Origin: an uncultured Oscillospiraceae bacterium
GTDB lineage: Bacteria; Bacillota; Clostridia; Oscillospirales; Ruminococcaceae
Assembly (NCBI GenBank): GCA_949285935.1
Contig: CASEAH010000065.1
Coordinates: forward strand, 1-39,781
DNA: 39,781 nt
Reading direction: 5' to 3'
A program made the position numbers and the translations under genes. Numbering within the stretch: the first letter of the stretch is position 1; each line of letters begins with the position of its first letter. The notes below the pieces were generated by a model. It made no database searches. It saw nothing but the letters and a program-made list of their open reading frames with translations, and had not been told where the DNA came from. Below, piece by piece: positions 1 through 16,172 of this stretch.

Positions 1-873
1 TCCCTGTCCGGTCTCAAAATACAGCACATTGGGGCCCTGCCCGGTCCCCTTCTGCCGCAGCAGTTCCTGGGCTTCCCGCACCGTCTCGGTGGTAAAGCCG
101 AAGGCGCTGTTGCCCTTCTGGCTTCCGGCGATGGATTGGAAGATCATGTCGGTGGGGGCGCCCTTTTTCACCGCTTCGATCTGGGTGGTGATGTGTCCCA
201 GAACACAGATCTGGGTGGGGATCTGGAAACGGTTTTTCACCTCGTCAAACCGTTTGAGCACCTCCGACAGGCTGGCCACCGTGTCGTTGACCGGATTGAG
301 GCCGATGAGGGCGTCACCGCAGCCGTAGCTGAGGCCCTCAAACAGGGAGGCGGTGATCCCCTCCACGTTGTCGGTGGAGTGATTTGGCTGGAGCCGTGTG
401 GCCAACGTCCCCCGCAGGCCGATGGTGGTATTGCAGTGGGCGGGTACCCGCACCTTTCCGGCGGCGTATACCAGATCCATGTTGCTCATCAGCTTGCAGA
501 CCCCGGCGATCATCTCGCTGGTAAGGCCCCGGCTCAGCTCCCGGATCTGCTCCTCGCCGGTTCCGTAATCCAGCAGATATTCCCGCAGCTCTGCCACCGA
601 CCAGCCCCGGATCCGGTTATATACCTGAGGATCCACCCCGTCCTGGATGATGCGGGTCACATCATCGTCCTCGTAGGGCACCGCCGGGTTCTCCCGCAGG
701 TCGCTGAGGAGCAGGTGGCTGAGCACCTCCTTGGCGGCAATCCGCTCCAGGCCGGATGCGGCGGCGATCCCCGCCAGCACATCCCCGGATTTTTCCTCAT
801 TGGCCTTGGCCAGCACCTCCTTCACCGAAGAGAAGGCAAAAGTCTGACCGCTGAGCACAGTCTGTAATCTCAA
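1..873 (-). CDS. eutB: Ethanolamine ammonia-lyase large subunit EutB (partial, C-terminus outside window)
   Basis: Catalytic large subunit of adenosylcobalamin-dependent ethanolamine ammonia-lyase, which turns ethanolamine into acetaldehyde and ammonia, usually inside a microcompartment. The visible 291 codons read through the family landmarks: an N-terminal KANEEKSGD stretch, HCNTTIG-like PAHCNTTIGLRGT, a YGCGDALIGLNPVNDT segment in the TIM barrel, and YFETGQG at the cut edge. The usual length is about 450 residues, so roughly the last third is missing to the left. The start is a TTG at 871-873: no ATG lies in frame nearby, and a GGAGGG ribosome binding site sits 7 nt upstream. It follows eutA after 136 nt in the same direction; eutC would be expected next. 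Confidence in the family is very high. Confidence 0.97.
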   Translation of the reverse strand, partial: MRLQTVLSGQTFAFSSVKEVLAKANEEKSGDVLAGIAAASGLERIAAKEVLSHLLLSDLRENPAVPYEDDDVTRIIQDGVDPQVYNRIRGWSVAELREYLLDYGTGEEQIRELSRGLTSEMIAGVCKLMSNMDLVYAAGKVRVPAHCNTTIGLRGTLATRLQPNHSTDNVEGITASLFEGLSYGCGDALIGLNPVNDTVASLSEVLKRFDEVKNRFQIPTQICVLGHITTQIEAVKKGAPTDMIFQSIAGSQKGNSAFGFTTETVREAQELLRQKGTGQGPNVLYFETGQG

Positions 874-917
874 GGAATCTCCCTCCGTTCTTCCCGTCCG
901 CCCTTTCTGGTCCGACT

Positions 918-961
918 CCGGAGCGGTCCGGTCCTCCCCGCCCGTCCTCTCCGGGCGGAGG
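918..961 (-). promoter_or_regulatory. Two consecutive hairpins in the eutA-eutB gap
   Basis: In the transcribed (minus) orientation the gap has first a stem CCGCCCG/CGGGCGG (938-944 with 952-958, 7-nt loop, extended by CCT/AGG at 933-935 and 959-961 around a CC bulge), then a smaller CCGGA/TCCGG stem (918-931, 4-nt loop). No U-tract follows, so neither is a simple terminator. They may be processing or stability elements, or a binding site for the ANTAR regulator encoded upstream, but neither loop has the A1-G4 hexaloop described for ANTAR targets. Confidence 0.4.
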
Positions 962-1009
962 CTGTTTTTGATGCAGGATCCGCGCCGCCGGTTCCCCGGC
1001 CGCGCTGTC

Positions 1010-2446
1010 TTATCCGAAAATCAGGGTTTTCACCACCACGGGGATCACCATCCCGCCCATCAGGGGACGGCCCAGATCCACATAGTCGTTTTGCTCCACC
1101 CGGATGCTGTCAAGGGCGGCCACCTCCCGGCGGTCCCGGAGCAGGCTTTCCATGGCCTGACCCAAAGCCTTGGCCATGTCCCGCTCCACTACCACCAGCA
1201 CCGGTGCGCCCGGCGGCAGTGCCTGGTCCAGCGCCTCCGCTATGGCCCCGGCAGCGGCCTGCAGCTCCCGATAACCGGGGTCCGCCTTTCCGGGCAGGGC
1301 CAGAATCATCCTCTCAGCCCCGCACTGGTCCAGAAACCACCGTACCCGCTCTTCCAGCGCCGCCTCTTCCCCGGCAAAGACCGGCTCCTGCTCCGCGGCG
1401 CTCAGCTTGAGGACAGGAACATTTTTCAGGGGAAAAAGCCGTGGGCTGTAGGAGATGGTACTGCCGGAAATGGAGGTGGTATAGGTCCCGGCCCCCACCA
1501 CCGTGGCCCGAATGGTCTCCCGGGCCTCCAGCACCTTCCGCCGGGTAAAGAGCCCGCTTTCCCGGATGCTCTGGCCCAGCAGGGGGCCGATGTCCCCGTA
1601 CCGGAAAGGATCGCCGCCGGGATGGTAGATCTGATCCGCCACCCCTCCGGAAAAGCAGAGCCGCTCCGCCGGATGCTCCGGGCGGAAGGGCGTGCTTCCC
1701 GGGGTCTGGAGCGCCTCCAGCAGCGGTCCGGGGGTCCGGAGACCCATCAGCTCCTCCAGAGCCCGGGCAAACAGGTCGGTGATCCGCCGCAGCTCCCGGG
1801 GATCGGCAGGCTGTCCCGGCTTCAGGTCCACCCCTGCCTCCCGGGCCGCCAAAGCCGCCGGAGGGCTGATCCGCTCCACCCGGTGATCCGGAGAGATGCG
1901 GATGAGCCGCCCTCCCACATCCACGCATCCTTTGGCCACCGTCTCGCCCCGCTCAAACTGGACCACATTGGCGGTGCCTCCGCCGATATCCAGGTTGGCC
2001 ACGGTACAATCGTTATCCAGGCTGTACTGCCATGCCCCGCTGCCCTTCCCGGCAATGATGGCCTCCAGATCCGGCCCGGCTGTGGAGACCACAAAATCTC
2101 CGGCAAAGCCGCTGAGCCGCTCCAGCACCAGCCGGGCGTTTTCTTTCCGGGCCGATTCCCCGGTGATGATGACCGCGCCGGTGCCGGTATCGGCAGGGGA
2201 GTAGCCCGCTTTGGCAAATTCGCCCGCCACCAGTTCCCGGACCCGGTCGGCATCGATGCGGCTGGCATCCAGCAGGGGCGTAAAATGGATGTCGCTTTTA
2301 TAAAGAATCTTCTTGTCCACAATGGACACGTGGGGCACCGAAAAATACCCGGAGGTGTTCTCCAACTCCAGCCGGCTGAAGATGACCTGGGTGGTAGAGG
2401 TGCCGATATCAATGCCTACGCTGAGGAGCTCTGCCACCTTCATCAC
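1010..2446 (-). CDS. eutA: Ethanolamine ammonia-lyase reactivating factor EutA
   Basis: EutA is the actin-fold ATPase chaperone that removes damaged cobalamin from EutBC and so restores activity. The protein (477-478 residues, normal for the family) opens with the nucleotide-binding loop SVGIDIGTSTTQ, has a second phosphate-loop region NLDIGGGTANVV near residue 180, and a FSGGV motif near 270. A GTG at 2446 and an ATG at 2443 are adjacent; the ATG with AAAGG just upstream is the likelier start. It lies between the EutW-type kinase (128-nt gap with hairpins) and eutB, the order seen in Firmicutes eut clusters. Very high confidence in the assignment. Confidence 0.96.
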   Translation of the reverse strand: MMKVAELLSVGIDIGTSTTQVIFSRLELENTSGYFSVPHVSIVDKKILYKSDIHFTPLLDASRIDADRVRELVAGEFAKAGYSPADTGTGAVIITGESARKENARLVLERLSGFAGDFVVSTAGPDLEAIIAGKGSGAWQYSLDNDCTVANLDIGGGTANVVQFERGETVAKGCVDVGGRLIRISPDHRVERISPPAALAAREAGVDLKPGQPADPRELRRITDLFARALEELMGLRTPGPLLEALQTPGSTPFRPEHPAERLCFSGGVADQIYHPGGDPFRYGDIGPLLGQSIRESGLFTRRKVLEARETIRATVVGAGTYTTSISGSTISYSPRLFPLKNVPVLKLSAAEQEPVFAGEEAALEERVRWFLDQCGAERMILALPGKADPGYRELQAAAGAIAEALDQALPPGAPVLVVVERDMAKALGQAMESLLRDRREVAALDSIRVEQNDYVDLGRPLMGGMVIPVVVKTLIFG

Positions 2447-2472
2447 CGCCTTTCCGGGCCTGAGGACCCGCT

Positions 2473-2556
2473 AAAAACACAAAGAGACCAAAGCGATATG
2501 CCCGCATATCGCCTCGGCCTCGTTGCCAGATCCGCGCCGCACCCTGTTGTGCGGCG
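2473..2556 (-). promoter_or_regulatory. Twin hairpins plus U-rich tract between eutW and eutA (candidate EutV target/attenuator)
   Basis: Reading the minus strand, the first hairpin is CGCCGCAC/GTGCGGCG (2535-2542 with 2549-2556) with the six-base loop AACAGG. About 22 nt later comes GCGATATG/CATATCGC (2493-2500 with 2505-2512, CGGG loop), followed by a T-rich stretch (2473-2492, ending in TTTTT). The layout of two hairpins with the second next to a U-rich tract resembles ANTAR-controlled antitermination sites upstream of eut genes. The first loop has the expected A at position 1 but not G at position 4, and the second loop is a tetraloop, so the match is only partial. Confidence 0.45.
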
Positions 2557-2574
2557 GAAGTATCTAATTTTTCA

Positions 2575-3663
2575 TCAGGGAAAATCAAAAAGCGCCTTGG
2601 TCCCTTCCGCTCCGGAACTGATCCGCAGCTCTCCCTTGAGCTTATCCCGGACTGTGGCTTCCACAATGTCCAGGCCCAGACTGTTCCGGGGGGCCCGGCA
2701 CGGATCAAACCCCACTCCATCATCCTCCACGGTGACGGTGTTGTACAGGTTGCCCGTCTGAACGGTAATGGTGATCCGCCCCTCCGGCCGCCCCTCAAAG
2801 GCGTGTTCCAGAGCGTTGGAAACCAGCTCATTGACCACCAGGGACACCGAAGTGGCCTGATCCGCCCCCAGCACCAGGTCGTCCCCTTCCACGGCAATGG
2901 TGACGGCCTTGCCGTCGGGGACCAGGGACTGAAGGCTGCGGCGCAGCTTTTCCAGCAGGACCCGGCTGTGCACCGCCATGCCGTCGGCACTGCTTATGGT
3001 CAGTATATCATGGATGGCTGCGATACTCAAGACCCGTCCCACATTTTCCCGGAAAATCCGTTTGATATCCGGGTCAGGGCACTTCCGGGCCTGGATGCTC
3101 AGGACACTGGCCACCAGCTGAAGGTTGTTTTTTACCCGGTGGTGTACCTCCCGCATGGCAGCCTGCTGTTCTTTTCCTTCTCCGGTTCCGGGACAGAGGG
3201 GGCGCAGCGTTTCCTCCCGACCCTCCCGTTCCCGGGCCAGTTCTTCAAACTTTCTCTCCCGCAGCAGGCTCCGGCTGATGTCCTCCTCCCGGATGAGCGC
3301 CCCGATGACCCGGCCGCCCGTTCCCCGGATGGGCACCACATCCTGCTTGACTGACTGGTTTTCCTGGGTGATGGCCTTCAGATCCCGTACAGGCATCCCC
3401 GACGCCAGCGCATGGAAGACCGCCGGTTCCCGGTCCGGCCGGGCCAGCTTCCCCGTTACCGTCTGGCAGTAGGCGCTTCTCTCCCGCAGGGGTTTGGCCT
3501 CTGCCACCACCACCGCCCCGGAACCGTCCCGGAGCGGGCAGTCAATAAACACATCCGAACCGGTCAGGTCCGCCGTCAGCTGGAGGGTGGCCTCCACCTC
3601 CCGGAGGCGTTGGATCTCCTCCGCTTCCAGGTCGGTATATTCTTTGCAAAGCTGTTCCAGCAC
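2575..3663 (-). CDS. eutW: Ethanolamine-type sensor histidine kinase (EutW-like)
   Basis: Cytosolic sensor kinase with no membrane segments. Residues 1-140 look like the H_kinase_N sensor domain that precedes HisKA_2 kinases of the EutW family; a charged helix (135-170) follows; the phosphoacceptor motif is REVHHRVKNNLQ (His174/175); the ATPase domain has an N-box NELVSNALEHAF (278-289) and a G-box DDGVGFDP near 310. In enterococci EutW responds to ethanolamine and phosphorylates EutV. The start is GTG at 3663 with AAGGAG six bases upstream. It lies 34 nt after the ANTAR regulator, so the two form a cognate pair. That the ligand here is ethanolamine is inferred from context. Confidence 0.88.
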   Translation of the reverse strand: MLEQLCKEYTDLEAEEIQRLREVEATLQLTADLTGSDVFIDCPLRDGSGAVVVAEAKPLRERSAYCQTVTGKLARPDREPAVFHALASGMPVRDLKAITQENQSVKQDVVPIRGTGGRVIGALIREEDISRSLLRERKFEELAREREGREETLRPLCPGTGEGKEQQAAMREVHHRVKNNLQLVASVLSIQARKCPDPDIKRIFRENVGRVLSIAAIHDILTISSADGMAVHSRVLLEKLRRSLQSLVPDGKAVTIAVEGDDLVLGADQATSVSLVVNELVSNALEHAFEGRPEGRITITVQTGNLYNTVTVEDDGVGFDPCRAPRNSLGLDIVEATVRDKLKGELRISSGAEGTKALFDFP

Positions 3664-3697
3664 AGGCTTCTCCTTCCTTTCCGCTTTGGGTCGGGGA

Positions 3698-4456
3698 TCA
3701 GTCCAGCACCCGCCGGGCCGCTTCCGCCATGGGTCTTCCCGACCGCCTGGCCTCCTCGGCCAGGTACCGGTAGGCAGCAGGTTCAGAAATCCCCTTCTTC
3801 CGCATCAGAGCCTCCTTGGCGCGGTTGATCAGCTCCCGCTGGGAATGCTGCTCCACCACCGCCCGGGCCAGGGCGGCAATGGTGGTGCGCTTATCCATGG
3901 CCATCTGCCGCAGCTGCCGGTAGGCATCGCCTTCTCCCATTCCCTGTTCCCGGGCCATCAGGGCCTTGGCCCGCTCGATCAGCTTCTGCTCCTCCAGTTG
4001 CCGCAGGGCGTCGGCCGTCTCCTGCCGGCTTTGGCGCAGCCTCCGGCTTTGGGCCAGGGCCACCTCAATGGCAGGCAGCAGCAGCCGCTGCTCCACCGGC
4101 TTGACCAGATACCCGGTGACGCCGATACGGTTGGCCCGCTCAATCAGCTCCGGGCTGCTGAACGCAGTAAGGAGGCAGACACACCCCGCCAGTTCCTGGG
4201 ACAGGATGGTTTCGGCGGCGGTCAGGCCGTCAAAAACCGGCATTTTAATATCCATCAGCACCACGTCGGGATGCCTGGCCCGGCACAGTTCAATGGCGTC
4301 AAAGCCATCCCCTGCCGCGCCGGCCACCTGGAAGCCCAACTCTTCCAGCATCTGGGAAAGGTCCATCCGGGTAATGGGCTCATCGTCCACCACCACCGCT
4401 GTCCGCAGGGTTTCCCCTTCCCGGATCGCTCCTTCCAAAGCTCCGGGGCCGGTCAT
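3698..4456 (-). CDS. eutV: Response regulator with two tandem ANTAR domains (EutV-like antiterminator)
   Basis: Receiver domain at residues 18-135 with the acidic pair D24-D25, phosphorylatable D69 (VLMDIKMP), T97 and K119. Then comes an ANTAR domain (about 150-203: LIERAKALM...AYRQLRQMAMDKR) and a second, clearly homologous ANTAR copy (about 205-252: LINRAKEALM...AYRYLAEEARRSGR). Described EutV proteins have one ANTAR and about 190-200 residues; this one has 252. ANTAR domains bind paired RNA hairpins and prevent termination, so this protein probably controls eut transcription when phosphorylated by the kinase encoded 34 nt downstream. Its ATG overlaps the stop of the upstream phosphodiesterase (ATGA), so the two are translationally coupled. 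Confidence 0.9.
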   Translation of the reverse strand: MTGPGALEGAIREGETLRTAVVVDDEPITRMDLSQMLEELGFQVAGAAGDGFDAIELCRARHPDVVLMDIKMPVFDGLTAAETILSQELAGCVCLLTAFSSPELIERANRIGVTGYLVKPVEQRLLLPAIEVALAQSRRLRQSRQETADALRQLEEQKLIERAKALMAREQGMGEGDAYRQLRQMAMDKRTTIAALARAVVEQHSQRELINRAKEALMRKKGISEPAAYRYLAEEARRSGRPMAEAARRVLD

Positions 4457-5196
4457 GCCCCTTCGCCCCGCTCAAATTCCCGGATGACCTGTCCGCACAG
4501 ATCGGGGTGGTTGGTGATCACCACGTCCACGCCCTTGCGGAACATATCCAGCATCTCCTCCCGGGTATTGACGGTCCAGGTGTTTACCTCCCGCCCCGCG
4601 TCCCGCATTTCCCGCAGGCACTGCCAGGTGAGGTTGTTGACAATGGGATGGACGCACTGGACGCCATGGTCCCGGGTATAGGCGCCTACGCCGATGTACC
4701 AGCTCTCGGTAAGGAAGCCCAGCTTCACATCCGGAGCCAGGGCCTGGAACCGAAGCACCGAAAAATGATTGAAGGAGGAAATGATGATCCGGTCCCGCAG
4801 GTCAAACTCGTCTATCAGCTCCAGAGTTTTCTTCTCAATGCCGGGGTACTCATAAATTCCGGTTTTCAGCTCGATATTGGTCACGATGCCCGTATCCTTT
4901 ACCAGCTCAAAATACTCCCGCAGGGTGGGGATACGGTTGACCCCATAAACGCCTTTATACCCGGCAGAGGCGTCCAGCTGCCGCAGCTGCGCAAGGGTAT
5001 GATCCTTGACCCAGCCATGGCCGTCGGTGGTGCGCTCCAGCTCCTCGTCATGAATAATGACCAGTTCTCCGTCGGTGGTAAGATGGACGTCCAGTTCGAT
5101 CCCGTCACACCCTGCTTCAATGGCTTTCTGGAAGGCCAGAAGGGTATTTTCGGGATATTTGCCGCTGAATCCGCGGTGAGCAAAATTCTTGGTCAT
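4453..5196 (-). CDS. Glycerophosphodiester phosphodiesterase, cytosolic
   Basis: Hydrolyses glycerophosphodiesters (such as glycerophosphoethanolamine) to glycerol 3-phosphate and the free alcohol. The 247-residue protein is a single GDPD TIM barrel: His7-Arg8 (AHRGF), PENT at 15-18, Glu34/Asp36 (GIELDV), the second catalytic His49 (IIHDEELERTTDG), and a late TWTVN segment. There is no signal peptide, so the substrate must already be inside the cell. The ATG at 5196 has AAGGAG upstream; an in-frame extension upstream lacks a better site. It is coupled to the EutV-type regulator by a 4-nt overlap and follows the ABC importer genes after 102 nt, which ties phosphodiester cleavage to ethanolamine catabolism. 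Confidence 0.95.
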   Translation of the reverse strand: MTKNFAHRGFSGKYPENTLLAFQKAIEAGCDGIELDVHLTTDGELVIIHDEELERTTDGHGWVKDHTLAQLRQLDASAGYKGVYGVNRIPTLREYFELVKDTGIVTNIELKTGIYEYPGIEKKTLELIDEFDLRDRIIISSFNHFSVLRFQALAPDVKLGFLTESWYIGVGAYTRDHGVQCVHPIVNNLTWQCLREMRDAGREVNTWTVNTREEMLDMFRKGVDVVITNHPDLCGQVIREFERGEGA

Positions 5197-5223
5197 ATCC
5201 GGTCGCTCCTTTTCATAAAGGTT

Positions 5224-5267
5224 TTTGCCTATGGCAACCGGACCGTCTCCTTCCAAGGCGACGGCCC
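5224..5267 (-). promoter_or_regulatory. Two hairpins between the ABC ATPase and the phosphodiesterase gene
   Basis: On the minus strand GGGCCGTC pairs with GACGGTCC (one G-U) around an inner CCTT/AAGG stem (5240-5267), and TTGCC-ATA-GGCAA follows (5224-5236), ending just before the ribosome binding site. No U-tract follows the first stem. It could set the expression ratio between the transporter and the enzymes, but that is inference. Confidence 0.35.
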
Positions 5268-5298
5268 GGCCCACTCTGCCGCATCCTGGTAAGGGACC

Positions 5299-6306
5299 TT
5301 ACAGCTGGATGCAGTTCTCTTTTTTGATGGACATATAAATCTCCTGGCCGTGGTCAAACATCATGGAAGTGCGGAACAGAACGTCCACATCCACCTGGGT
5401 GCCGCCGCACCGGACCGCATACCGCAGGATGTTGCCGTGGGGCAGGCTGTCGTCGATAACACCCTTCCAGTGGTAGCAGTTTTCCCGCTGAGAGGGCTGG
5501 AGGGTGATCTCCACCGCCTCGGGACGGAAAGCCACGTCCTGGCAGTCCAGCTTTTCTCCCGTCAGGGTACCAAACTCCGCAGCCGACAGGATATTGTAAT
5601 GGCCGATGAAAGTAGCGGCAAACTTGGTAGCCGGGCGGGTGTACATTTCCGTGGGATTGGCGGACTGCTCAATGATCCCCTGATGCATCAGGTGGATCAC
5701 GTCCGACATGACCATAGCCTCATCCTGGTCGTGGGTCACAAAGATGGCGGTCATCCCCAAATCCTTCTGGATCTTGCGGATCTCGATCTGGAGGGAACGG
5801 CGCAGCAGGGCGTCAATGGCCGACAGCGGCTCGTCCAGAAGCAAAACCTTGGGCTGGATGACAATGGCTCTGGCCAAAGCGGCGCGCTGCGGCTGGCCGC
5901 CGGAAAGCTGGGAGGGATACTGCCCGGCCTTATCCGAAAGGCCCACCACCCGCAGGATCTCGCTGACCCGGCGGTCGGTTTCTTCCTTGGGAACCTTCTT
6001 CATTTTCAGGCCAAAGGCCACGTTCTGGGCCACGTTCAGGTTGGGGAAAAGGCTGTACTGCTGGAACACCATTCCCACGTCCCGGTCCTTGGGGTTGACG
6101 TTGGTGATGTCCGCTCCATCCAGATATACCTTGCCCGCGGTGACCGCTTCCAGCCCCGCCAGGCAGCGCAGCAGGGTACTTTTGCCGCAGCCGGAGGGCC
6201 CCAGCAGCGTCACCAGCTGGCCCTGCTCGATCTCCAGGTTGATGTCCTTGAGCACCTCGTTCTGGCCGAAGGATTTATACAGATGTTCAAACCGAATATA
6301 CGACAT
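5299..6306 (-). CDS. ABC transporter ATP-binding protein (spermidine/iron/aminoethylphosphonate-type importer)
   Basis: Energises import through the two permeases encoded just upstream. It has Walker A GPSGCGKST (about 36-44), a Q-loop (VFQQYSLFPNL), signature LSGGQPQR, Walker B VLLLDEPLSAID, H-loop VTHDQDEA, and a C-terminal TOBE-like domain (about 235-335). It belongs to the PotA/FbpC/PhnT group. Two small departures from the usual pattern are visible: Pro instead of Gln in the signature (usually LSGGQQQR) and SAIDALLR where SALDAxLR is normal. The stop of permease 2 lies 6 nt before this start; AAGGGG precedes the ATG. The substrate is not set by the sequence; the eut and GDPD neighbours suggest a phosphate ester of ethanolamine. 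Confidence 0.92.
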   Translation of the reverse strand: MSYIRFEHLYKSFGQNEVLKDINLEIEQGQLVTLLGPSGCGKSTLLRCLAGLEAVTAGKVYLDGADITNVNPKDRDVGMVFQQYSLFPNLNVAQNVAFGLKMKKVPKEETDRRVSEILRVVGLSDKAGQYPSQLSGGQPQRAALARAIVIQPKVLLLDEPLSAIDALLRRSLQIEIRKIQKDLGMTAIFVTHDQDEAMVMSDVIHLMHQGIIEQSANPTEMYTRPATKFAATFIGHYNILSAAEFGTLTGEKLDCQDVAFRPEAVEITLQPSQRENCYHWKGVIDDSLPHGNILRYAVRCGGTQVDVDVLFRTSMMFDHGQEIYMSIKKENCIQL

Positions 6307-6312
6307 AGATCA

Positions 6313-7119
6313 TTACCCCTTACCTTTCTGCATTTTGCCTTTGGCCTCGCGGCTCTTGATGAAGAGTACCAGAGCGGTGATGAGGAAGGTGGTGAGCATA
6401 ATGATCACAAACACCGCACTGGCCTTGGTGCTGGACCGCTTCATCTCCAGGAACAGATAGATCTGCACGTTCTGGAAGGAGGTGCCGGCAATGTTGCGGA
6501 TCAGCACATAATCGCCGAAGATGATCCCTACCGCCAGCAGGGAGGAAACGGTGATGCCCGAAATGATGTTGGGCACGATCACCTTGAAGAAGCCGTAGAG
6601 CTTGGAGGCTCCCAGCATTTCGGCGGCCTCCAGGAGCATGGGCATATTCACCGCGTGCATGCTGTTGCGGATGCCCTGATAGATATAGGGGAGAATAATG
6701 ATGCAGTAAGCGCCCACCAGCATGATCATCCGGTTATCCAGCACCGTTCCCGAACCGGCGTAGAGGGAAAGGATACTGACCGAAAGGATGACTCCCTGAA
6801 TGGTATAGGGGATCATGCAGAGGATCTGAACGTATTTTTCCAGCCGGGGGAAGTAGATCGTCACCACAAACAGGGCCAGCAGCACCAGCAGGATGGTGAG
6901 CAGGATGGGAATGATACAGATGATGACGGTGCGGCCCAGAGAGAGCATGAATTCCTTTTCGGTGAAAAGTTCCACATAGTTGTGCAGGGAAAAATGCTCC
7001 GGCAGCAGGCCGGTCCACTTGTCAAACAGGGAATAGGTGGCGGTGGCCAGCAGAGGAATCAGCAGATAGATGATGATGATGGTAACGGTGATGTGGGCTG
7101 CGGTGTGTTTCTTCTTCAT
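6313..7119 (-). CDS. ABC transporter permease 2
   Basis: Inner-membrane permease of the binding-protein-dependent type, 268 residues with about six hydrophobic segments (near residues 10-30, 65-90, 105-120, 132-150, 190-210, 238-258). The cytoplasmic coupling loop EAAEMLGASKLYGFFKVIVP (near 165-185) is the EAA motif that docks on the ATPase. The ATG overlaps the stop of permease 1 by 4 nt. Together with the neighbouring ATPase, permease and lipoprotein it completes a canonical two-permease importer. Confidence 0.92.
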   Translation of the reverse strand: MKKKHTAAHITVTIIIIYLLIPLLATATYSLFDKWTGLLPEHFSLHNYVELFTEKEFMLSLGRTVIICIIPILLTILLVLLALFVVTIYFPRLEKYVQILCMIPYTIQGVILSVSILSLYAGSGTVLDNRMIMLVGAYCIIILPYIYQGIRNSMHAVNMPMLLEAAEMLGASKLYGFFKVIVPNIISGITVSSLLAVGIIFGDYVLIRNIAGTSFQNVQIYLFLEMKRSSTKASAVFVIIMLTTFLITALVLFIKSREAKGKMQKGKG

Positions 7120-7982
7120 GCCTTGCGCACCCCCTTCTGGGTCTTTCTGGTGATGGCGTTGGTGATGAGGATCATGATGACCATCAGCAGCATCATGATT
7201 ACCGACAGCGCGCCGCCCAGGCCCTTACGGATGGTGACGTCGCCCACAAACATGCCGGAAATGCTGATGGGCAGCAGCGCGTAGTTGTTCATCAGCAGGG
7301 CGTAGGCAGTGGCGTAGGCCGCCAGGGCGTTGGCAAAGAGGACGCTGATGGTGCCCAGAATACTGGGAAGCAGCACCGGCACGCCCACCCGGGTCCAGAA
7401 CTGGAAGGATCCCGCCCCCAGCAGCAGGGAGGACTCCTGCCACTCCCTGCGGATACCCTCAAAGGCGGGAATCAACAACAGGGTGGACAGGGGGATCTGG
7501 AAATAGACATAAATCAGGGTCAGGCCGTGGGTGGTATACAGCTCGTAATTGGCCAGGGCCTCCAGGCCGATGGTCTTTCCCAGTTTCAGCAGCACCCCCG
7601 AATTGCCCAGCATGATCATATAGGCAAAGGCCAGGGGTACACCGGCGAAGTTGGAGACCATATTCAGCACCGTCATAAAAGCGGTGTGGAACCGGCCGTT
7701 GGACTCGTGGGCGGCCTTGGCGCCGAAGAAGGCGATGACAATCCCGATGGCCGAGGAAACACAGGAGATCTGGATGCTGTTGAGGATGGCCTTTTTGTAC
7801 AGGGGTTTGGAAAAGACCGTCACATAGTTTTCCAGGGTGAAGGAGCCGCCGGCGTCGGGGATGAAGCTGTTGAAAATGATCATCAGCAGCGGGATCACCT
7901 CAAACAGCAGAGCTACCACCAAAAAAGGGAGCAGCACCAGAAGGTAGAGGTACTTTCGGTTGTTTTTCATGTTCCGTATCAC
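7116..7982 (-). CDS. ABC transporter permease 1
   Basis: Second integral-membrane subunit of the same importer. It has an N-terminal hydrophobic segment (LYLLVLLPFLVVALLF), five further segments, and a degenerate EAA loop around QESSLLLGAGSFQFWTRVGVP. A GTG at 7982 and an ATG at 7970 are both possible starts; neither has a strong ribosome binding site, and the ATG gives the more typical N-terminus. It follows the phosphodiesterase-family gene after about 45-57 nt and overlaps permease 2 by 4 nt. Confidence 0.91.
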   Translation of the reverse strand: MIRNMKNNRKYLYLLVLLPFLVVALLFEVIPLLMIIFNSFIPDAGGSFTLENYVTVFSKPLYKKAILNSIQISCVSSAIGIVIAFFGAKAAHESNGRFHTAFMTVLNMVSNFAGVPLAFAYMIMLGNSGVLLKLGKTIGLEALANYELYTTHGLTLIYVYFQIPLSTLLLIPAFEGIRREWQESSLLLGAGSFQFWTRVGVPVLLPSILGTISVLFANALAAYATAYALLMNNYALLPISISGMFVGDVTIRKGLGGALSVIMMLLMVIMILITNAITRKTQKGVRKA

Positions 7983-8027
7983 CCGTCCATTTCTTATCTC
8001 TCCCCAGGGCCGGGGAGGCCGCGCAGG

Positions 8028-8846
8028 TTATGTCATGACGATTTCCAGCTCCTGAACCATCTCTGCCGCAGGAGGGATCTCCAGCAGCCGGCAGATGAGC
8101 GGCGCCACATTCAGCTGGGATACCGCCTGCTGGGTGTGATCTCCCGGCTGCACCTCAGGAGCAAAAATGTACAGCGGCAGGGTACGCAGTTCCGGGGAGT
8201 CGCCGCCATGCTGGCCCAAGGAGTTCATGCCATGGTCGGCGGTGACCACCACCCGGTATCCGTCCTCCAGCCAGCCGGGAAGCAGGCGGCCAAGCGCCTC
8301 TCCCGCGCCCAGCGCCGCATCCAGATACTCCCGGCTCTGGCTGCCGTGACGGTGTCCCTCCAGGTCGATGTTCATGGAATGGATCAGAAGAAAATCAGGG
8401 GTGTACTTTTTTCTCAGGAACTCCCCGTCCAGAAACAGATGGCTGTCGGGGTAGGAATCTTCATAGTAAAAAATACCGTGGCAGATGTCCCCCGGGCCAT
8501 CCGGCTGAAACCGGTCCGCCATGGGGTCAAAAGGGGCTTTGGAGTAAAGCTCCGACATCCAGCTGTAGGCTGCCGCCGCGGTCTCCAGGCCCCGGGCCCG
8601 GCAGAGGCGGAAAAGGGTTTCGCACCGGGAACGGCGGACAACGCCGTTGTCGGTGATTCCGTGACGCAGGACGGGCAGCCCTGTCAGCACGGTTTCATAC
8701 ATGGGGCGGGACATGGTGGGCAGCTCTCCCCATACCCTATATTTGGCTCCACGGCCCTGCTGCACCAGATGCTCCAGATAGCCCGCTGCTTGGGTGACGG
8801 TATCCAGACGGCATGCGTCCAGCAGCACAAGAATGGTTTTTCCCAT
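8028..8846 (-). CDS. Alkaline-phosphatase-superfamily phosphodiesterase/phosphatase (type I NPP-like), cytosolic
   Basis: A 272-residue enzyme of the type I phosphodiesterase/nucleotide pyrophosphatase group. All expected two-metal positions can be seen: D10 (LLDACRLD), candidate nucleophile T44 or S46 (LPTMSRP), D161 and H165 (NIDLEGHRHG), D204-H205 (TADHGM) and H213. There is no signal peptide or membrane anchor, so it acts in the cytosol. Members of this superfamily cleave phosphomono- and diesters, including glycerophosphocholine in ENPP6, and phosphonates. Lying inside an ABC importer operon upstream of GDPD and eut genes, it plausibly trims the imported phosphate ester. ATG 8846 has AGGCAGG nine bases upstream; a TTG at 8852 is less likely. 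The exact substrate is unknown. Confidence 0.85.
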   Translation of the reverse strand: MGKTILVLLDACRLDTVTQAAGYLEHLVQQGRGAKYRVWGELPTMSRPMYETVLTGLPVLRHGITDNGVVRRSRCETLFRLCRARGLETAAAAYSWMSELYSKAPFDPMADRFQPDGPGDICHGIFYYEDSYPDSHLFLDGEFLRKKYTPDFLLIHSMNIDLEGHRHGSQSREYLDAALGAGEALGRLLPGWLEDGYRVVVTADHGMNSLGQHGGDSPELRTLPLYIFAPEVQPGDHTQQAVSQLNVAPLICRLLEIPPAAEMVQELEIVMT

Positions 8847-8917
8847 AAGCAATTACCTGCCTGCTCTTCTTTTGTTTGCGGCCCGGCGCCGCGAAAAAGT
8901 CCTTATATGCCAAGAGC

Positions 8918-8998
8918 GGGGTGCACAACAGACCGGTTGCACACCCCACTGTGCCCGGAACGCAGGGAGCCGGGACCCGGCCTGTGGCCGGGTCCCGG
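8918..8998 (-). promoter_or_regulatory. Strong hairpin pair after the solute-binding-protein gene
   Basis: CCGGGACCCGGCC (8970-8982) pairs perfectly with GGCCGGGTCCCGG (8986-8998) around a TGT loop. A second imperfect stem (8918-8929 with 8936-8947, six-base loop) follows on the minus strand. No U-tract is present. Such stems after binding-protein genes commonly stabilise the upstream mRNA and lower downstream gene expression; that role is inferred here. Confidence 0.55.
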
Positions 8999-9039
8999 AT
9001 GGCGGCTCACTGCCTTCCGGACCTGCTTTTGGTATTCAA

Positions 9040-10170
9040 TTAGCTCATCAGGGGGATGATTTCTTCCTGCCATCTCTGGGCGATGGTCTCGCGGATGGCG
9101 TCGTAAGCGGCGGGGTCGGTGATAGGAATCGCGTTGGCGTACTGGTCAGGAGTAAAGGTAGCCGCCTGGATATCCTCAGGGATGACCACGTCGGTACGGG
9201 TGGGGATGGCGCCGGCCTTGGCCAGGTTGGCCTGTCCCTTGTCGCTGAAGATGTACTCACGGGCCAGGGCAGCCGCATGGGGGTGAGGCGCATATTTGTT
9301 GATAACGGAAGCGTAGCCGCTCATAATGGCGCCGTCGGAAGGCACGCAGACGTCAAAGGTATAGTTGGGGGTCTGGTCACGGTAACCGAAAACATTGAAG
9401 CTCCAGGTCACGCCCACTTCCACCTCGCCGGCCTGAATGCGCTGGAGGAGGATGTCGCCGGGATCGATACGGCCGGCCTCGGCCATTTCGGTCCAGAACT
9501 CAAAGGCGGGATCCAGGTTGTCCATGCCGCCGCCAAAAGCATAGGCGGTAGCCAGAACCACGCCCTGGCCGGTAGCACCGGTGACCACGTCGCCGATGGT
9601 CAGCTTGTAATCGCCGTTCTTAACGTCCTCCCAGGACTTGGGGGGATTCTCCACCAGGTCGGTGTTGGTGATGAAGCTGGTGACGCCGGTATAGGCCATC
9701 ATCCACAGGCCGTCGGGATCCTTGGCCCAATCGGGAACGCTGTCCCAATAAGAGGTCTTGTAGGACTGAACGACGCCCATCTCCACGGCTTTGGGACCAA
9801 AAGCGTGGCCCACGTCGCCGATGTCCTTGGTGGGAGAGTTCTTCTCGGTCTCGAACATGTTCAGCTCCTCGGCGGAGGACATGTCGGTGTCATTGTGCTC
9901 GATGCCGTATTCGGCTTCGATGCCGTCCCAGGTCTCCTGCCAGTTGGCCCAGGAGCCGGGCATGCCTACAGATTCCAGTTTTCCTTCGGTTTTTGCGCCC
10001 TCAATGATCTGATCCAGAGTCAGGCTGTTAAGATCCAGCGCCGCTTCGCCGCCGGAGCCGCTTTCACCTTCGGGGGCAGCGGAACTTGCGGGAGCGGAGC
10101 CGCATGCGGACAGAACCAGGGTGAGGCACAGAACAGTTGCGAGAATTCGTAACGCTTTGTTTGCTTTCAT
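9040..10170 (-). CDS. Solute-binding lipoprotein of the ABC importer
   Basis: Extracellular receptor of the importer, 376 residues. The signal peptide ends in a lipobox (LVLSACGS, Cys about 23), followed by a Ser/Gly/Glu linker. The mature part matches the family 1 / Fe-PotD-AfuA-like cluster: two lobes, with conserved-looking DIGDVGHAFGPKAVEMG, YTGVTSFITNTDLV and a C-terminal hinge GYASVINKYAPHP. ATG at 10170 has AGAGGAG eight bases upstream; longer in-frame starts upstream lack this. It is the first gene of the operon, which is usual for a protein needed in excess. The ligand is unknown; a phosphorylated ethanolamine compound is the inference from the downstream genes. Confidence 0.92.
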   Translation of the reverse strand: MKANKALRILATVLCLTLVLSACGSAPASSAAPEGESGSGGEAALDLNSLTLDQIIEGAKTEGKLESVGMPGSWANWQETWDGIEAEYGIEHNDTDMSSAEELNMFETEKNSPTKDIGDVGHAFGPKAVEMGVVQSYKTSYWDSVPDWAKDPDGLWMMAYTGVTSFITNTDLVENPPKSWEDVKNGDYKLTIGDVVTGATGQGVVLATAYAFGGGMDNLDPAFEFWTEMAEAGRIDPGDILLQRIQAGEVEVGVTWSFNVFGYRDQTPNYTFDVCVPSDGAIMSGYASVINKYAPHPHAAALAREYIFSDKGQANLAKAGAIPTRTDVVIPEDIQAATFTPDQYANAIPITDPAAYDAIRETIAQRWQEEIIPLMS

Positions 10171-10436
10171 TTCTGATTCTCCTCTTTCCTTTTGGATTGG
10201 CATCCCCCGTCACAGGTCCTGTAAGGCCTGTCCCGGGGCAGCCTTTTTTCAGCGCCATCAAAGGCCGGAGCCCTATCGGCGCAGGAAAACATAATTTCTT
10301 TCATAGATACAGCGAAGCCACCGGAGGCGTGTGCTTCCAACCGTGGCTTCGGACAACAGTCTTTCTCTTCTTCACAACCCATCCGATGACGTTTCATGCA
10401 GGATCCATATTTTTTTGTTTCACCACTTACATTATC
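10171..10436 (-). promoter_or_regulatory. Long structured 5' leader of the importer-eut operon
   Basis: About 260 nt separate the predicted promoter from the first start codon, with no credible ORF. On the minus strand three hairpins can be drawn: CGAAGCCAC/GTGGCTTCG, then GCGCC/GGCGC enclosing AGGGC-TCCG-GCCTT, then CCCCG/CGGGG enclosing ACAGG/CCTGT close to the ribosome binding site. No B12 box (GCCACTG) or other riboswitch consensus that I know is present. A cis-regulatory role is inferred from length and structure. Confidence 0.4.
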
Positions 10437-10465
10437 AGAATATCACAAAAAAGCCTTTGTGTAAA
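10437..10465 (-). promoter_or_regulatory. Sigma-A promoter of the importer-GDPD-eut operon
   Basis: TTTACA (10460-10465), a 17-nt spacer, then TATTCT (10437-10442) on the minus strand. It lies just after the stop of the mgtC-like gene, with no obvious terminator in between, so read-through from mgtC cannot be excluded. Confidence 0.6.
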
Positions 10466-10507
10466 TAAAGTCTTTATAAAGTTCTGCCAAGTTTTTGTAA
10501 AGAATCG

Positions 10508-11203
10508 TCAGATCCCTTCCACAAACTTGACTCCCTGGATCCCGCTGATCAGCACCAGCAGATCGGCATGGTCCCGCTTCTGATCCAGCCTCAGGGTCAT
10601 GACCGTTGCCACAGCGGCGTCGCTCCCGGCGTTGGGCTTGGTGATCTCAATGGCCACCACCCGGATGCCGTGCACCCGGATCTTGTCCATGAAGGCGCTG
10701 ATATCCGCCGTTTCCTTGAACTCCACATACAGGTCCATGACCTTGCTCCGGGAAAGGATATAGTTATCCAGGCGATGCAGAGCGGAGCTGACCAGCCAGA
10801 TAAAGAAACAGGCGATAATGGCCGCCTCATAAAATCCCACACCAATGGCCAGTCCCATGCAGGCAGAAGCCCAAAGCCCTGCGGCAGTGGTAAGGCCCTT
10901 GACCTGCTGCCGGCCGGTGACGATGATGGTGCCTGCCCCCAGGAAACCGATACCGCTGATGACCTGGGCTCCCAGCCGGGCGGGATCGCCCCCTCCATAA
11001 CACTGGATCAGGTATTCATTGGTCATCATGGCCAGGGCTGATCCCAGACACACCAGAATATGGGTACGGAAGCCTGCGGGGCGGCCTTTTTTCCCCCGCT
11101 CCATGCCGATAATGCCGCCGCACAGCACGGCAAGGCAAAGGCGGGCAATAATGGAGACGGAGTTTAGCTCCTCCATCATCCTGATAAAATCCTGAAACTG
11201 CAA
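10508..11203 (-). CDS. MgtC/SapB-family membrane protein
   Basis: Four to five hydrophobic segments occupy residues 17-125 with the family signatures GGIIGMERGKKGRPAGFRTHILVC and GAQVISGIGFLGAGTI; a soluble ACT-like C-terminal domain (about 150-231) follows, as in larger MgtC proteins. Family members are linked to Mg2+ homeostasis and inhibition of ATP synthase in pathogens; the role in gut Clostridia is not established. The longest frame starts at TTG 11203; an ATG at 11179 (nine codons in) is an equally reasonable start, and neither has a strong ribosome binding site. It has its own promoter with a palindrome. Confidence 0.9.
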   Translation of the reverse strand: MQFQDFIRMMEELNSVSIIARLCLAVLCGGIIGMERGKKGRPAGFRTHILVCLGSALAMMTNEYLIQCYGGGDPARLGAQVISGIGFLGAGTIIVTGRQQVKGLTTAAGLWASACMGLAIGVGFYEAAIIACFFIWLVSSALHRLDNYILSRSKVMDLYVEFKETADISAFMDKIRVHGIRVVAIEITKPNAGSDAAVATVMTLRLDQKRDHADLLVLISGIQGVKFVEGI

Positions 11204-11274
11204 ATCATCATCCCGTTCCTGTTAAAAGAAAAAACCGGTTGTCGCTGTGACTCTTAAGCCGATATTCGATTAAT

Positions 11275-11304
11275 ATTAAAGCACAATTTACAATGTAAAG
11301 TCAA
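11275..11304 (-). promoter_or_regulatory. Promoter of the mgtC-like gene with overlapping palindrome
   Basis: TTGACT (11299-11304) and TTTAAT (11275-11280), spacer 18 nt. A perfect palindrome TTTACA-N-TGTAAA (11287-11299) fills the spacer next to the -35 box, a typical repressor position. Confidence 0.6.
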
Positions 11305-11790
11305 TAAAAATTTTATTATAAATGCACAGTTTTGTTGGGGAATTTTGCCGTAAAAACCTTTAAAAAACACGAAGAAATCGTAATTTTTTCAGTCCATTCC
11401 CACCATTTTTTTAAAGCTCTGGATGGAGCATCCGTTTTCCGGGCCTGTGGGAGCTTCCATTTTGCCGGGAGCGGCTTGCATCACCGTTTGGGAAAAGGAG
11501 AAGCCTCGGCGCGATGTGGATGGCAAAGCCTGTTTGTGCCCCAATATGGCTGTCTTCGTCAGGATATCCGGCAGCCAGCGTCCATCCCATATTCTTCCCG
11601 TTTGCGGAAAGACTGCCGGACTCAGGCTGCGCCAGCCCTTGGTTTTTCCGGCACTACGGAAACCTTTTGATGTGTCTCGATCCCTTTCCCATTTTTCTGC
11701 TCCCAGGGTTCGGCAGATTTCTGAAATATCCCCACCTGCTTTGTTTTTGAAGCGAGCAGGCATTTTGATGTACTGCTACCCCTTTTCCGC
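11305..11790. other. Gene-free stretch between the mgtC promoter and the DUF4349 terminator
   Basis: Begins AT-rich and then becomes mixed-composition sequence. Short open frames on both strands lack ribosome binding sites and recognisable domains. Nothing further is seen. Confidence 0.6.
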
Positions 11791-11823
11791 AAAAAGCGCC
11801 CCGGCAGGCTGCCGGGGCGCTTT
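11791..11823 (-). terminator. Rho-independent terminator of the DUF4349 gene
   Basis: On the minus strand AGCGCCCCGGCAG pairs with its complement CTGCCGGGGCGCT around CC, followed by TTTTT. Confidence 0.9.
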
Positions 11824-11833
11824 GGTTCAGCTG

Positions 11834-12895
11834 TTATTTTTCTTCTTTTTTCTCTTCCGTCGGGGGTTGAGGGCTCTGCGGGGCGGGATATTTCTGAAAT
11901 CCTCCCTGCATCGGCGGGACATAGGGCGGCCGGGGAGGTTGAGGCGGCCTCCGGGAAGCAATTTTCTTGCTGATGCGCACAACGATCCAGGCGATCAGTC
12001 CGATGAGGGCCGCAAAGATCAGCATCACCGGAAGGTCCTCGATGACGAAGAAGAGGATCCCCTGCAAAGCGCCGGAAATATTCTCCAAAGAGCGGGCTCC
12101 GGAGGCCTGCAGCTTATCCCAGAAGGTCTTGGGCTGGTTTTTCAGCAGGTTGTACTCCACCACTTCCCGCAGATTGAGATTCAGGTAGGAGTAGGTGACC
12201 TGGCTGTCCATCCGCTTGAGAGAAGCGGTAAGGGATTCGATCTGGTACCGCACATCAGACAGAGCCTGCTCCAGGGTGATAACATCCTCCAGCTTTTCTG
12301 CTTTGGAAAGGATATCCAGCAGCCGCTCTTCCTGAAGCTTCAGGGTATCCAGCCGGGCCTGGGCATCGTAATAGCTGTCGGTAATGTCATCCATGCTCTC
12401 ATTTTTGGAAACAACATTGCACAAACCGCCTACCGATTCCGTCACCGCGTCCAGCTGATCTGCCGGAATCCGGGCCGAGATGCTGGCGTTTCTTTCGTAG
12501 TACTCTCCCTGGTTATAGAAGCTTCGGCCGCCTACCTCCTGATTCTGGATATAGCCGCCCGCTTCTTCTACGATCCGGACAATATCCTCAAGGGCCTGGT
12601 CAAACTCCATGGTCTCCATTTCCAGGGTGCAGTACTTGACGATTTTTCGCTCCTCCTGAGGAACTGCCGCACCTCCGGTATCCGGCTGGACCTTTTCCGT
12701 TTCCACCGCATCTGTGGCTGAGGGGGCCTCCTGCGGCGCAGCCATATCAAAGGCCATCATGTTCCTGCCGCCGCCCATCTCCTCCATGACGGCAGCGGAA
12801 CTGGATGCCCCGCCGCTGCTGGCTCCACAGGCGGTAAAGATCATTGCCATTGCTGCCAGTACCGATAATCCGGCCATCCACGTTCTTTTGTTCAT
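11834..12895 (-). CDS. DUF4349 domain lipoprotein/membrane protein
   Basis: 353 residues. An N-terminal signal segment ends in a plausible lipobox (IFTACGAS), followed by a Ser/Ala/Met-rich linker. The DUF4349 core (about 85-290) contains KIVKYCTLEMET, YIQNQEVGG, ISARIPADQLD and a long coiled-coil (LKLQEERLLDILSKAEKLEDVITLEQALSDVRYQIESLTA); a membrane segment (about 292-312) and a Pro-rich cytosolic tail follow. The family is of unknown function. The ATG at 12895 has AAGGAGG eight bases upstream, which decides it over longer in-frame starts. It is monocistronic, with its own promoter and terminator. Confidence 0.9.
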   Translation of the reverse strand: MNKRTWMAGLSVLAAMAMIFTACGASSGGASSSAAVMEEMGGGRNMMAFDMAAPQEAPSATDAVETEKVQPDTGGAAVPQEERKIVKYCTLEMETMEFDQALEDIVRIVEEAGGYIQNQEVGGRSFYNQGEYYERNASISARIPADQLDAVTESVGGLCNVVSKNESMDDITDSYYDAQARLDTLKLQEERLLDILSKAEKLEDVITLEQALSDVRYQIESLTASLKRMDSQVTYSYLNLNLREVVEYNLLKNQPKTFWDKLQASGARSLENISGALQGILFFVIEDLPVMLIFAALIGLIAWIVVRISKKIASRRPPQPPRPPYVPPMQGGFQKYPAPQSPQPPTEEKKEEK

Positions 12896-12968
12896 AGAAA
12901 GGACCTCCTTATTTTCAGGCCAGTCAACGTCCTTGCGGATCTGCTTTCTTCGTCTATTGGGTGGCTCT

Positions 12969-12997
12969 ATTTTACCCTTTTGATGCGCAAAAGGCAA
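12969..12997 (-). promoter_or_regulatory. Promoter of the DUF4349 gene
   Basis: TTGCCT (12992-12997), 17 nt, TAAAAT (12969-12974) on the minus strand. Confidence 0.55.
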
Positions 12998-13467
12998 ATT
13001 TTCCGTTCTGCCCAAACCCAATCCTTTGTTTTTGGCGTTTTTTCCACCTGCCGCCAGCTGTTTGTCCCTGTCACAATCCCCGTTCTGCTGTGGGGGCGGC
13101 GTTGCCTGTCCAGACCTTTTGTTTCATCTTCTGCCAGACACAGGATGCTGCCGCCAACGACCGGCAGGTATTTTCTTTTTATTTTCACATTCAGGACGCC
13201 TTGCTTCCCTTCCGCGGCTGCTTTTTTGTTTTTGCCTGCGTCCTGAGCATATGGGCAATCTTCCGGAACGCTCAGATCTTGCTGCGGGATCCTCTTTCCG
13301 CCGCCTGCAAACAGGACCGATGGGTCTTCGGTGTTTCTGCTTTTATGGATGCTGCTGCCTTTTTTCATTGGCTGCAAGGGACTTATGCTGCGCCTCTCTG
13401 AAATCTACCCAGCATTGGTCTGCCGTACCCAAATCCTTTTATCCCACACGCCGCCCATTTTCCGCAG
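12998..13467. other. Gene-free stretch
   Basis: Between the DUF4349 promoter and the next terminator. Open frames of up to 204 codons exist but have no ribosome binding sites, no conserved domains and Phe/Cys/Arg-rich shadow-like compositions. I see nothing functional. Confidence 0.55.
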
Positions 13468-13468
13468 C

Positions 13469-13497
13469 AAAAAGGCGCGCCTTTTGTCCGGCGCGCC
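13469..13497 (-). terminator. Terminator of the DUF2975-regulator-DUF4173 operon
   Basis: Minus-strand GGCGCGCC (13490-13497) pairs with GGCGCGCC (13474-13481) and is followed by TTTTT; it starts 11 nt after the stop codon of the DUF4173-like gene. Confidence 0.85.
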
Positions 13498-13507
13498 CAA
13501 AGGATTT

Positions 13508-15430: not shown

Positions 15431-15450
15431 TTGAATAACCTCGTTACCTT

Positions 15451-15678
15451 TCAGAGTTTGGCGTCCGGCTTTTCCTCTTCCCAATATTCCAGAAGGTCGC
15501 CGGGCTGGCAGTCCAGGGCCCTGCAAAGCGCCTCCAGAGTGGAAAAGCGCACAGCCTTGGCCTTGCCGTTTTTGAGGATGGACAAATTGGCGGGAGTGAT
15601 GCCGATCTGTTCCGCCAGTTCTCCCGAGGAGACCTTTCTTTTTGCCATCATCACATCCAGATTGACTACGATGGGCAC
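15451..15678 (-). CDS. Small Cro/C1-type HTH regulator (YozG-like)
   Basis: 75 residues that are almost entirely one helix-turn-helix domain: ELAEQIGITPANLSILKNGKAKAVRFSTLEALCRALDCQPGDLLEY. Proteins of this kind (HTH_26) are usually encoded next to DUF2975 membrane proteins, as here (upstream neighbour 16 nt away). It probably regulates its own operon; a pair of 13-nt direct repeats overlaps the operon promoter. Confidence 0.92.
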   Translation of the reverse strand: MPIVVNLDVMMAKRKVSSGELAEQIGITPANLSILKNGKAKAVRFSTLEALCRALDCQPGDLLEYWEEEKPDAKL

Positions 15679-15694
15679 AACAGAGGCCTCCTTC

Positions 15695-16141: not shown

Positions 16142-16172
16142 GGCGGGGACCTCCTTTGTTCCTGATGGTGCC

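Follow-up and report, generated by a model that had tools for sequence, protein, structure and literature searches.

We analysed a stretch of 39,781 nucleotides from an uncultured Oscillospiraceae bacterium (GenBank assembly GCA_949285935.1, contig CASEAH010000065.1; hereafter the window), which is one contig (C65) of a metagenome-assembled genome (MAG, here G000) of 110 contigs and 2.44 Mb that is 89% complete. At its start it carries part of an ethanolamine utilization (eut) operon, to which are joined genes for an ATP-binding cassette (ABC) importer, an alkaline-phosphatase-superfamily enzyme (AP) and a glycerophosphodiester phosphodiesterase (GDPD). All of these lie on the minus strand and are given here in the order of transcription, preceded by a promoter-like site:

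10437..10465, minus strand: promoter-like site TTTACA-17-TATTCT with TG ahead of the second hexamer, located before the binding-protein gene (consensus match only)
9040..10203, minus strand: solute-binding lipoprotein (SBP_bac_6 profile match)
8028..8852, minus strand: predicted cytosolic AP-superfamily (NPP-like) phosphoesterase of 274 aa (Phosphodiest and Sulfatase matches; Phosphodiest E 4e-20)
7116..7982, minus strand: ABC permease 1 (BPD_transp_1; 22.7 bits, under the Pfam cut-off of 26.4)
6313..7119, minus strand: ABC permease 2 (BPD_transp_1, Pfam match)
5299..6306, minus strand: ABC ATPase with a TOBE domain (ABC_tran; best NCBIfam match PhnT2, under cut-off)
4453..5196, minus strand: predicted cytosolic GDPD (PF03009, E 1e-51; open reading frame from 5274)
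3698..4456, minus strand: EutV, receiver plus ANTAR antiterminator (Pfam)
2575..3663, minus strand: EutW histidine kinase, GAF_PdtaS/HisKA_2 (Pfam; by eye no transmembrane stretch)
1010..2446, minus strand: EutA reactivase (Pfam E 2.5e-167)
1..873, minus strand: 5′ part of EutB (Pfam EutB), cut by the contig end and continued on contig C59

These ten genes, with their common strand and Pfam matches, are those named in a preliminary description of the sequence, and the 4-nt overlaps it reported between permease 1 and permease 2 (7116-7119) and between GDPD and eutV (4453-4456) are present. The gene order it gave needs correcting in that the AP gene follows the binding-protein gene and precedes those of the permeases. 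The GDPD probably starts with the ATG at 5196, which is preceded by AAAAGGAG; the ATPase-GDPD gap is then about 102 nt rather than 24. In the binding-protein gene a second Met with a nearby ribosome-binding site lies at 10170.

The operon continues on contig C59 of the same genome, which at its start shares 47 identical codons of eutB with the window and, after that gene, codes for EutC, bacterial microcompartment (BMC) shell proteins, an aldehyde dehydrogenase, a cobalamin adenosyltransferase, a phosphotransacylase (PTAC), EutN, a PduS-like flavoprotein and EutP. Profile matches of this set comprise four BMC-domain proteins, EutC, EutN, PTAC and PduV-EutP, and one further protein matches TIGR02536 under cut-off. 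The eut operon also has a tandem pair of near-identical EutM-type shell genes (L009:3868-4754). Genomes of the same genus include the named isolate Angelakisella massiliensis, in which one contig (L010, the contig of L017; G140) carries the order from the binding protein to the cobalamin adenosyltransferase unbroken; hence, the arrangement in the window does not result from faulty assembly. The module is closely preceded, on the same strand, by an MgtC-family gene (10508-11203, minus), and in an Rfam search of the window no family reached the gathering score.

Linkage of the module to eut in clostridia

Starting from four AP proteins, a pattern search across about 85,000 genomes recovered 76 loci: 14 from Bacillota, one from Pseudomonadota and 61 others, which are Chloroflexota save one titled 'bacterium'. 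For the clostridial set we added the window and G326 (L186) and required the binding protein, the AP and at least one permease, giving 13 distinct stretches; L017, L040 and L025 are the same contigs as L010, L012 and L014, respectively, and Enterococcus was counted outside the 13. Genes of the eut system are present in ten of these stretches, in four arrangements: upstream of eutV with a GDPD (the window, L017 and L019); divergent from eutV (L015); downstream of eutP (L016, L018, L020, L022 and L040); and convergent with the operon in a second genus (L025, G011). The three eut-less stretches are L021 and G326, whose genomes show no EutB match, and L026, a 5.7-kb contig from a genome with EutB elsewhere. 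In L021, an Oscillospiraceae MAG, the importer module is adjoined on the opposite strand (10349-17058) by genes for MtnK, an MtnA-like isomerase, an FGGY kinase and a 2-hydroxyacid dehydrogenase; genes for a class II aldolase and an iron alcohol dehydrogenase are seen there by eye, and the whole resembles a methylthioribose/5-deoxyribose salvage set.

A review names Eat and EutH as ethanolamine transporters (PMC5821096). EutH (PF04346) has no match in the window genome, an 89% complete MAG, and was not found in A. massiliensis (L017, G398). Across 396 genomes of the family, EutB is matched in 30, EutH in 38 and the AP in 12 (G145 weakly), with EutH in 12 of the 30 that have EutB. It occurs in one of nine genomes with both AP and EutB (G264) versus 11 of 21 with EutB and no AP (Fisher p 0.049, uncorrected for kinship): eight of the nine belong to one genus, six of the 11 EutH-positive, AP-negative genomes belong to another, and one of the 21 (G012) has an EutB match of only 57 residues. 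Among the 13 AP-positive clostridial genomes reached by locus, EutB is found in 11, and EutH in one of these. Taken with the recurrent, differently arranged adjacency, the scarcity of EutH matches supports a coupling of the import module to eut.

The phosphoesterases, the transporter and their neighbours

The conserved core of the module is the binding protein, the AP and the ABC transporter. By eye, neither AP nor GDPD has a signal peptide. The AlphaFold2 model of the AP (pLDDT 97.3) has mostly NPP/ENPP phosphodiesterases as its neighbours in the PDB, ENPP6 being among them at rank 43 only, with 14% identity. We aligned 40 APs (A3), taken from the window's and 84 listed ones, and found the residues that we take to form the nucleophile and two metal sites to be retained almost throughout (D11 in 40 rows, S47 in 39, N68 in 40, D162 in 40, D205 in 39, H206 in 39 and H214 in 40); all except H214 could be aligned to 2gsn. 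Rows in this alignment and in that of the binding proteins (A4; 34 chosen from the window's and 60 others) exceed 230 aa and were picked for diversity, some representing one genome fetched twice; L161, at 27% identity, was retained in both A3 and the tree, in which it is a long branch. Position 166, presumably a metal ligand, is H in 22 of the 40 rows, including the window, E in 17, all from the Chloroflexota set, and G in one, which might reflect a metal-site switch.

In a tree of 45 APs, the clostridial and Enterococcus faecium proteins form a group of 17 (96/93), apart from a Chloroflexota group of 22 (100/99). The AP of the window groups with those of L015 and L021 (99/96), so that modules with and without a link to eut are closely related. 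G011 carries a second AP gene on another contig (L162; G011:C40:16162-16983), 53-55% identical to that of the window, and no binding-protein gene was recognised in this 3.8-kb locus. In three loci from Frisingicoccus and a related Clostridia MAG (L023, L024 and L086), the AP gene is preceded by one for a D-2-hydroxyacid dehydrogenase (confirmed by profile in L086 only), with 2-hydroxyacyl-CoA dehydratase-like genes nearby, by eye.

The GDPD matches PF03009 over its full length (positions 1-244 of 244). The preliminary description gave it too much weight; we rejected it as the defining enzyme, since it follows the ATPase gene in only three of the six clostridial modules in which this could be tested (the window, L017/L010 and L019) and is absent there from L040/L012, L025/L014 and L021. 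For the remaining seven of the 13, the sequence stops at the ATPase gene or close to it.

The binding protein has the lipobox LSAC, by eye, and its predicted model (pLDDT 91.7) and its sequence both place it closest to Campylobacter jejuni 5t1p (48% identity, E 1.1e-107). Its identity is 19-20% to the hexose-phosphate binder AfuA and 18% to 4r6y, a putative 2-aminoethylphosphonate (2AEP)-binding protein.

The core proved wider than the eut-specific module first supposed: it occurs without eut in Chloroflexota, Vibrio and Enterococcus plasmids. We clustered 60 of the 61 Chloroflexota-set loci (L090 was dropped, having no AP gene), naming each cluster from one profiled member; these loci are interrelated and the counts not independent. 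The main AP cluster is present in 57, the ATPase in 46, permease 1 in 36, permease 2 in 29 and the binding protein in 29, the contigs often being cut. Their neighbours include a PHO4-type transporter (24), MttB (23), a PfkB kinase (21), DUF47 (17) and an FAD-GcvT fusion (15). In a few of these loci the ABC transporter is replaced by an Opp- or Liv-like one (by eye), and in L037 a choline-kinase-family gene lies beside the module. On plasmids the AP is found in 199 records, 179 of them from Enterococcus; the one record opened, from E. faecium (L187:6936-12490), has it in a module with binding-protein and ABC genes, next to which a PHP-domain gene runs divergently, and the Pseudomonas aeruginosa plasmid stretch L190 is annotated with a binding protein and ABC genes but no AP. 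A PHP-domain neighbour also occurs in L014, and HAD-IB phosphatases in P. aeruginosa L188 and Vibrio L191; in the latter, a run of betI, betB and a betA truncated where the stretch ends begins about 2.7 kb downstream of the HAD gene, with two open reading frames between. Vibrio L189 and L191 and Aeromonas L193 are unannotated records, whose genes were called in this analysis. Across these settings, GDPD, PHP, HAD-IB, PHO4-type and DUF47 neighbours are proteins that handle phosphate or phosphate esters. The thread connecting the neighbourhoods would, as we read them, be a phosphorylated choline- or ethanolamine-type compound. The phosphoester substrate anticipated in the preliminary description gains support, at the level of predicted function, from these genes and from the AP in most modules.

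Control of the operon and the proposed route of ethanolamine supply

Two further features lie in the gap between eutW and eutA:

2513..2554, minus strand: ANTAR-type dual hairpin with six-base loops AACAGG (P1) and AACGAG (P2)
2484..2521, minus strand: intrinsic terminator before eutA, a 17-pair hairpin followed by UUUGUGUUUU, overlapping the second small hairpin

The fold of the terminator has z = -5.4 for a 67-nt stretch. In E. faecalis, such dual hairpins precede eutP, eutG, eutS and eutA, and their loops have A in the first and G in the fourth position (Ramesh et al., PMC3369931); the P2 loop fits this rule, and the P1 loop, with A at position 4, departs from it. A first scan, requiring loops with A in first place and at least one G in fourth, covered 13 stretch/strand sets and the first 12 kb of the window and returned the window site plus three matches inside coding sequence (L010, L018 and L019), which were set aside. 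For the second scan, of both strands of 27 loci, the loop pattern was widened after the loops of the window had been seen and is thus tuned on it. It gave six matches, every one in the eutW-eutA gap (the window, L010, L015, L019, L172 and L183), and none after each locus had been shuffled once by mononucleotide. Of the 27 loci, nine have eutW, and among these L174, L176 and L178 are without a match; a T-rich terminator after the dual hairpin was seen in the window, L010, L019, L172 and L183. Control of the importer by EutV through the importer's own leader was considered and rejected, there being no dual hairpin before any binding-protein gene in the 27 loci.

The preliminary description had seen no terminator in the operon. 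From the binding protein to EutW, only weak terminator-like matches were listed, all of them inside genes, but the statement fails at the strong terminator before eutA. Given the position of the latter, the operon is best read as two units, namely the importer with eutVW, and the genes from eutA on, which a conditional terminator precedes. Behind the binding-protein gene, the gap of 187 nt contains a strong fold that was not listed as a terminator (8900-9040, minus; -84 kcal/mol over 141 nt, z = -7.3) and perhaps keeps the binding-protein message above that of the rest of the operon.

Together, these features lead us to favour, by a modest measure, a reading in which the module is an importer of organophosphate head groups with cytosolic phosphoesterases, recruited to feed EutBC from an ethanolamine phosphoester. 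The lipoprotein would capture an ethanolamine phosphoester derived from membrane lipids, namely glycerophosphoethanolamine and/or phosphoethanolamine, which the permeases and the ATPase would import intact. The AP, with the help of the GDPD where present, would hydrolyse it in the cytosol, the ethanolamine passing to EutBC and the phosphate or glycerol 3-phosphate being kept. The importer and eutVW would form the upstream transcription unit; soluble EutW would sense intracellular ethanolamine and activate EutV, which would release the terminator before eutA, such that the compartment is built only after ethanolamine has been made. Import, internal cleavage and feeding of EutBC, as first proposed, stand as the best available reading, with the amendment that glycerophosphoethanolamine is not separable from phosphoethanolamine as the substrate. 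We count in its favour the repeated adjacency to eut in differing arrangements, the prevailing absence of EutH matches, the phosphoester and phosphate genes and head-group pathways nearby, the NPP/ENPP fold of the AP and the restriction of the dual hairpin to the eutW-eutA gap in the six loci.

Several observations weigh against it. The substrate and the enzyme activities are predictions from sequence, and most of the clostridial evidence comes from one genus, Angelakisella, with many of the genomes being incomplete MAGs. No EutB match was found in the AP-positive genomes of L021, G022 (a 4.5-kb contig having the AP without this ABC set nearby) and G326, in G145, whose AP match is weak, or in the MAG of L018, though eutS and eutP adjoin the module there. 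The Frisingicoccus-type L023, L024 and L086 have AP and EutB, but within 10 kb of the AP there are no eut genes and no such ABC set. Conversely, in G061 (L011) and G075 (L013), both positive for EutB and EutH, the binding-protein and ABC genes stand apart from eut and lack an accompanying AP; the ABC set of G061 pairs with two GDPDs, an eut-less occurrence of the kind that the preliminary description had named as refuting its reading, in a genome with two EutB matches elsewhere. EutH is also absent from ten of the 21 AP-negative, EutB-positive family genomes, so that its absence is only suggestive, and neutral ethanolamine can diffuse into cells (PMC5821096). Farther afield, EutB is matched in none of 19 Chloroflexota/Curvivirga genomes, the Enterococcus (L187) and Pseudomonas plasmid stretches show no eut, and the commonest Chloroflexota neighbours include, on the opposite strand, DJ-1/PfpI (21 of 60) and UPF0047 (16 of 60), which have no evident head-group role.

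A narrower interpretation, overlapping with the above, is that the imported compound is phosphoethanolamine, that the AP is a phosphomonoesterase, and that the GDPD is a local addition widening the diet to the diester. It agrees with the AP being in all 13 counted stretches (by construction) and most other modules versus the GDPD in half of the testable ones, with the phosphate-transport genes adjoining the Chloroflexota module, and with the PHP and HAD neighbours matching models of histidinol phosphatase, an amino-alcohol monophosphatase, of which only the HisJ-subfamily match in L014 and general HAD-IB matches pass cut-offs. However, the nearest solved neighbours of the AP are phosphodiesterases, GDPDs act on diesters, and L011 couples its ABC set to GDPDs alone; we hold this version to be unlikely, if the most serious of the alternatives.

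More doubtful still is a general phosphate-scavenging or 2AEP importer that merely adjoins eut. The best NCBIfam names of the transporter proteins, all under cut-off, are PhnT2, PhnU2, PhnV and the 2AEP-binding PRK15046/PhnS; the 2AEP-binding AepX likewise belongs to pfam13343 (PMC8316502), and the C. jejuni genes Cj0728-Cj0734 are phosphate-regulated (PMC1892558). The scores and the cut-offs of the 2AEP transporter equivalogs are 64.7 vs 310 for the binding protein, 359 vs 458 for the ATPase, and 55.9 vs 358.7 and 56.4 vs 593 for the permeases. Nevertheless, the binding protein is far closer to 5t1p than to 4r6y. Repeated, rearranged adjacency to eut also speaks against such an importer, as does the lack of a recognised phosphonatase-type gene beside the clostridial modules among those neighbours that were profiled, which were not all. 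Hydrolysis of 2AEP, moreover, is not known to yield ethanolamine. Finally, adjacency by chance or by shared inheritance in one genus, without functional meaning, would suit the preponderance of Angelakisella among eut-linked cases and the eut-less modules of other phyla, but is very improbable given that four arrangements, one in a second genus (G011/L025), keep both sets together and that GDPD and eutV overlap by 4 nt in the window.

Returning to import of an ethanolamine phosphoester, one may extend it, on a tentative footing and with less confidence than for the operon itself, to the widespread transporter-AP pair at large (the 5t1p type, Enterococcus plasmids, Chloroflexota, Vibrio and P. 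aeruginosa). The pair might be a device for import and hydrolysis of phosphorylated head groups that is plugged into eut, choline oxidation or betaine-type demethylation, with the AP as a bacterial intracellular choline/ethanolamine phosphoesterase and eut being fed from inside instead of through EutH. If the reading proposed for the operon is right, some gut-associated bacteria would take the phosphorylated head group before its release. They would obtain nitrogen, carbon and phosphate from it and avoid competition from bacteria that await free ethanolamine, which is what eut pathways are described as using. It would also provide a testable substrate class for the phosphate-regulated Campylobacter operon and for the module on many Enterococcus plasmids.

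Relation to known systems

Among the open-licence PMC papers that our searches listed, none describes an organophosphate ABC-AP module in an eut operon in its title or the opening of its abstract. The operon itself resembles the EUT2-type eut BMC locus of Firmicutes, whose EutB/C, EutA, shell proteins, EutV/EutW and PduL-type PTAC are all found here, along with the PduS-like protein and an antiterminator-like element before eutA; it differs in the ABC-AP-GDPD module before eutVW and in that the window genome has no match to EutH, a permease that is usual but not universal in such loci. The terms glycerophospho-, ABC transporter and phosphodiesterase are absent from the main text of the LoClass paper (PMC4207490).

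For the binding protein, the closest relative is that of the C. jejuni 5t1p system. We take 5t1p to be Cj0727, and the cj0727 operon to contain an AP gene; C. jejuni is not known to have eut genes. Cj0727-Cj0755 have been called phosphate-regulated (PMC2292242), and cj0727-cj0732 are named among operons without an assigned function (PMC7176700); in the literature on PA3251/PA3254 and cj0727-0732, too, we found no function.

Ugp/GlpQ-type use and the head-group catabolism of Phaeobacter parallel the proposed route in that an organic-phosphate ABC transporter and a GDPD are co-induced and ethanolamine is consumed; in Phaeobacter, however, GlpQ is extracellular and ethanolamine is processed via EtoX and gamma-glutamylation rather than an eut microcompartment (PMC10132767). 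The AepXVW/PhnSTUV systems share the binding-protein family PF13343 and related ATPases and permeases with the module, whereas the PhnS, PhnT2, PhnU2 and PhnV cut-offs are missed here. The binding proteins of Ugp and Phaeobacter, on the other hand, belong to a family other than that of the window's. As for the AP, ENPP6, a secreted animal enzyme and choline-specific glycerophosphodiesterase, is longer (392 aa in the chain) and distant in sequence, but has the same AP/NPP fold and, if the import of ethanolamine phosphoesters proposed here is right, would act on related substrates.

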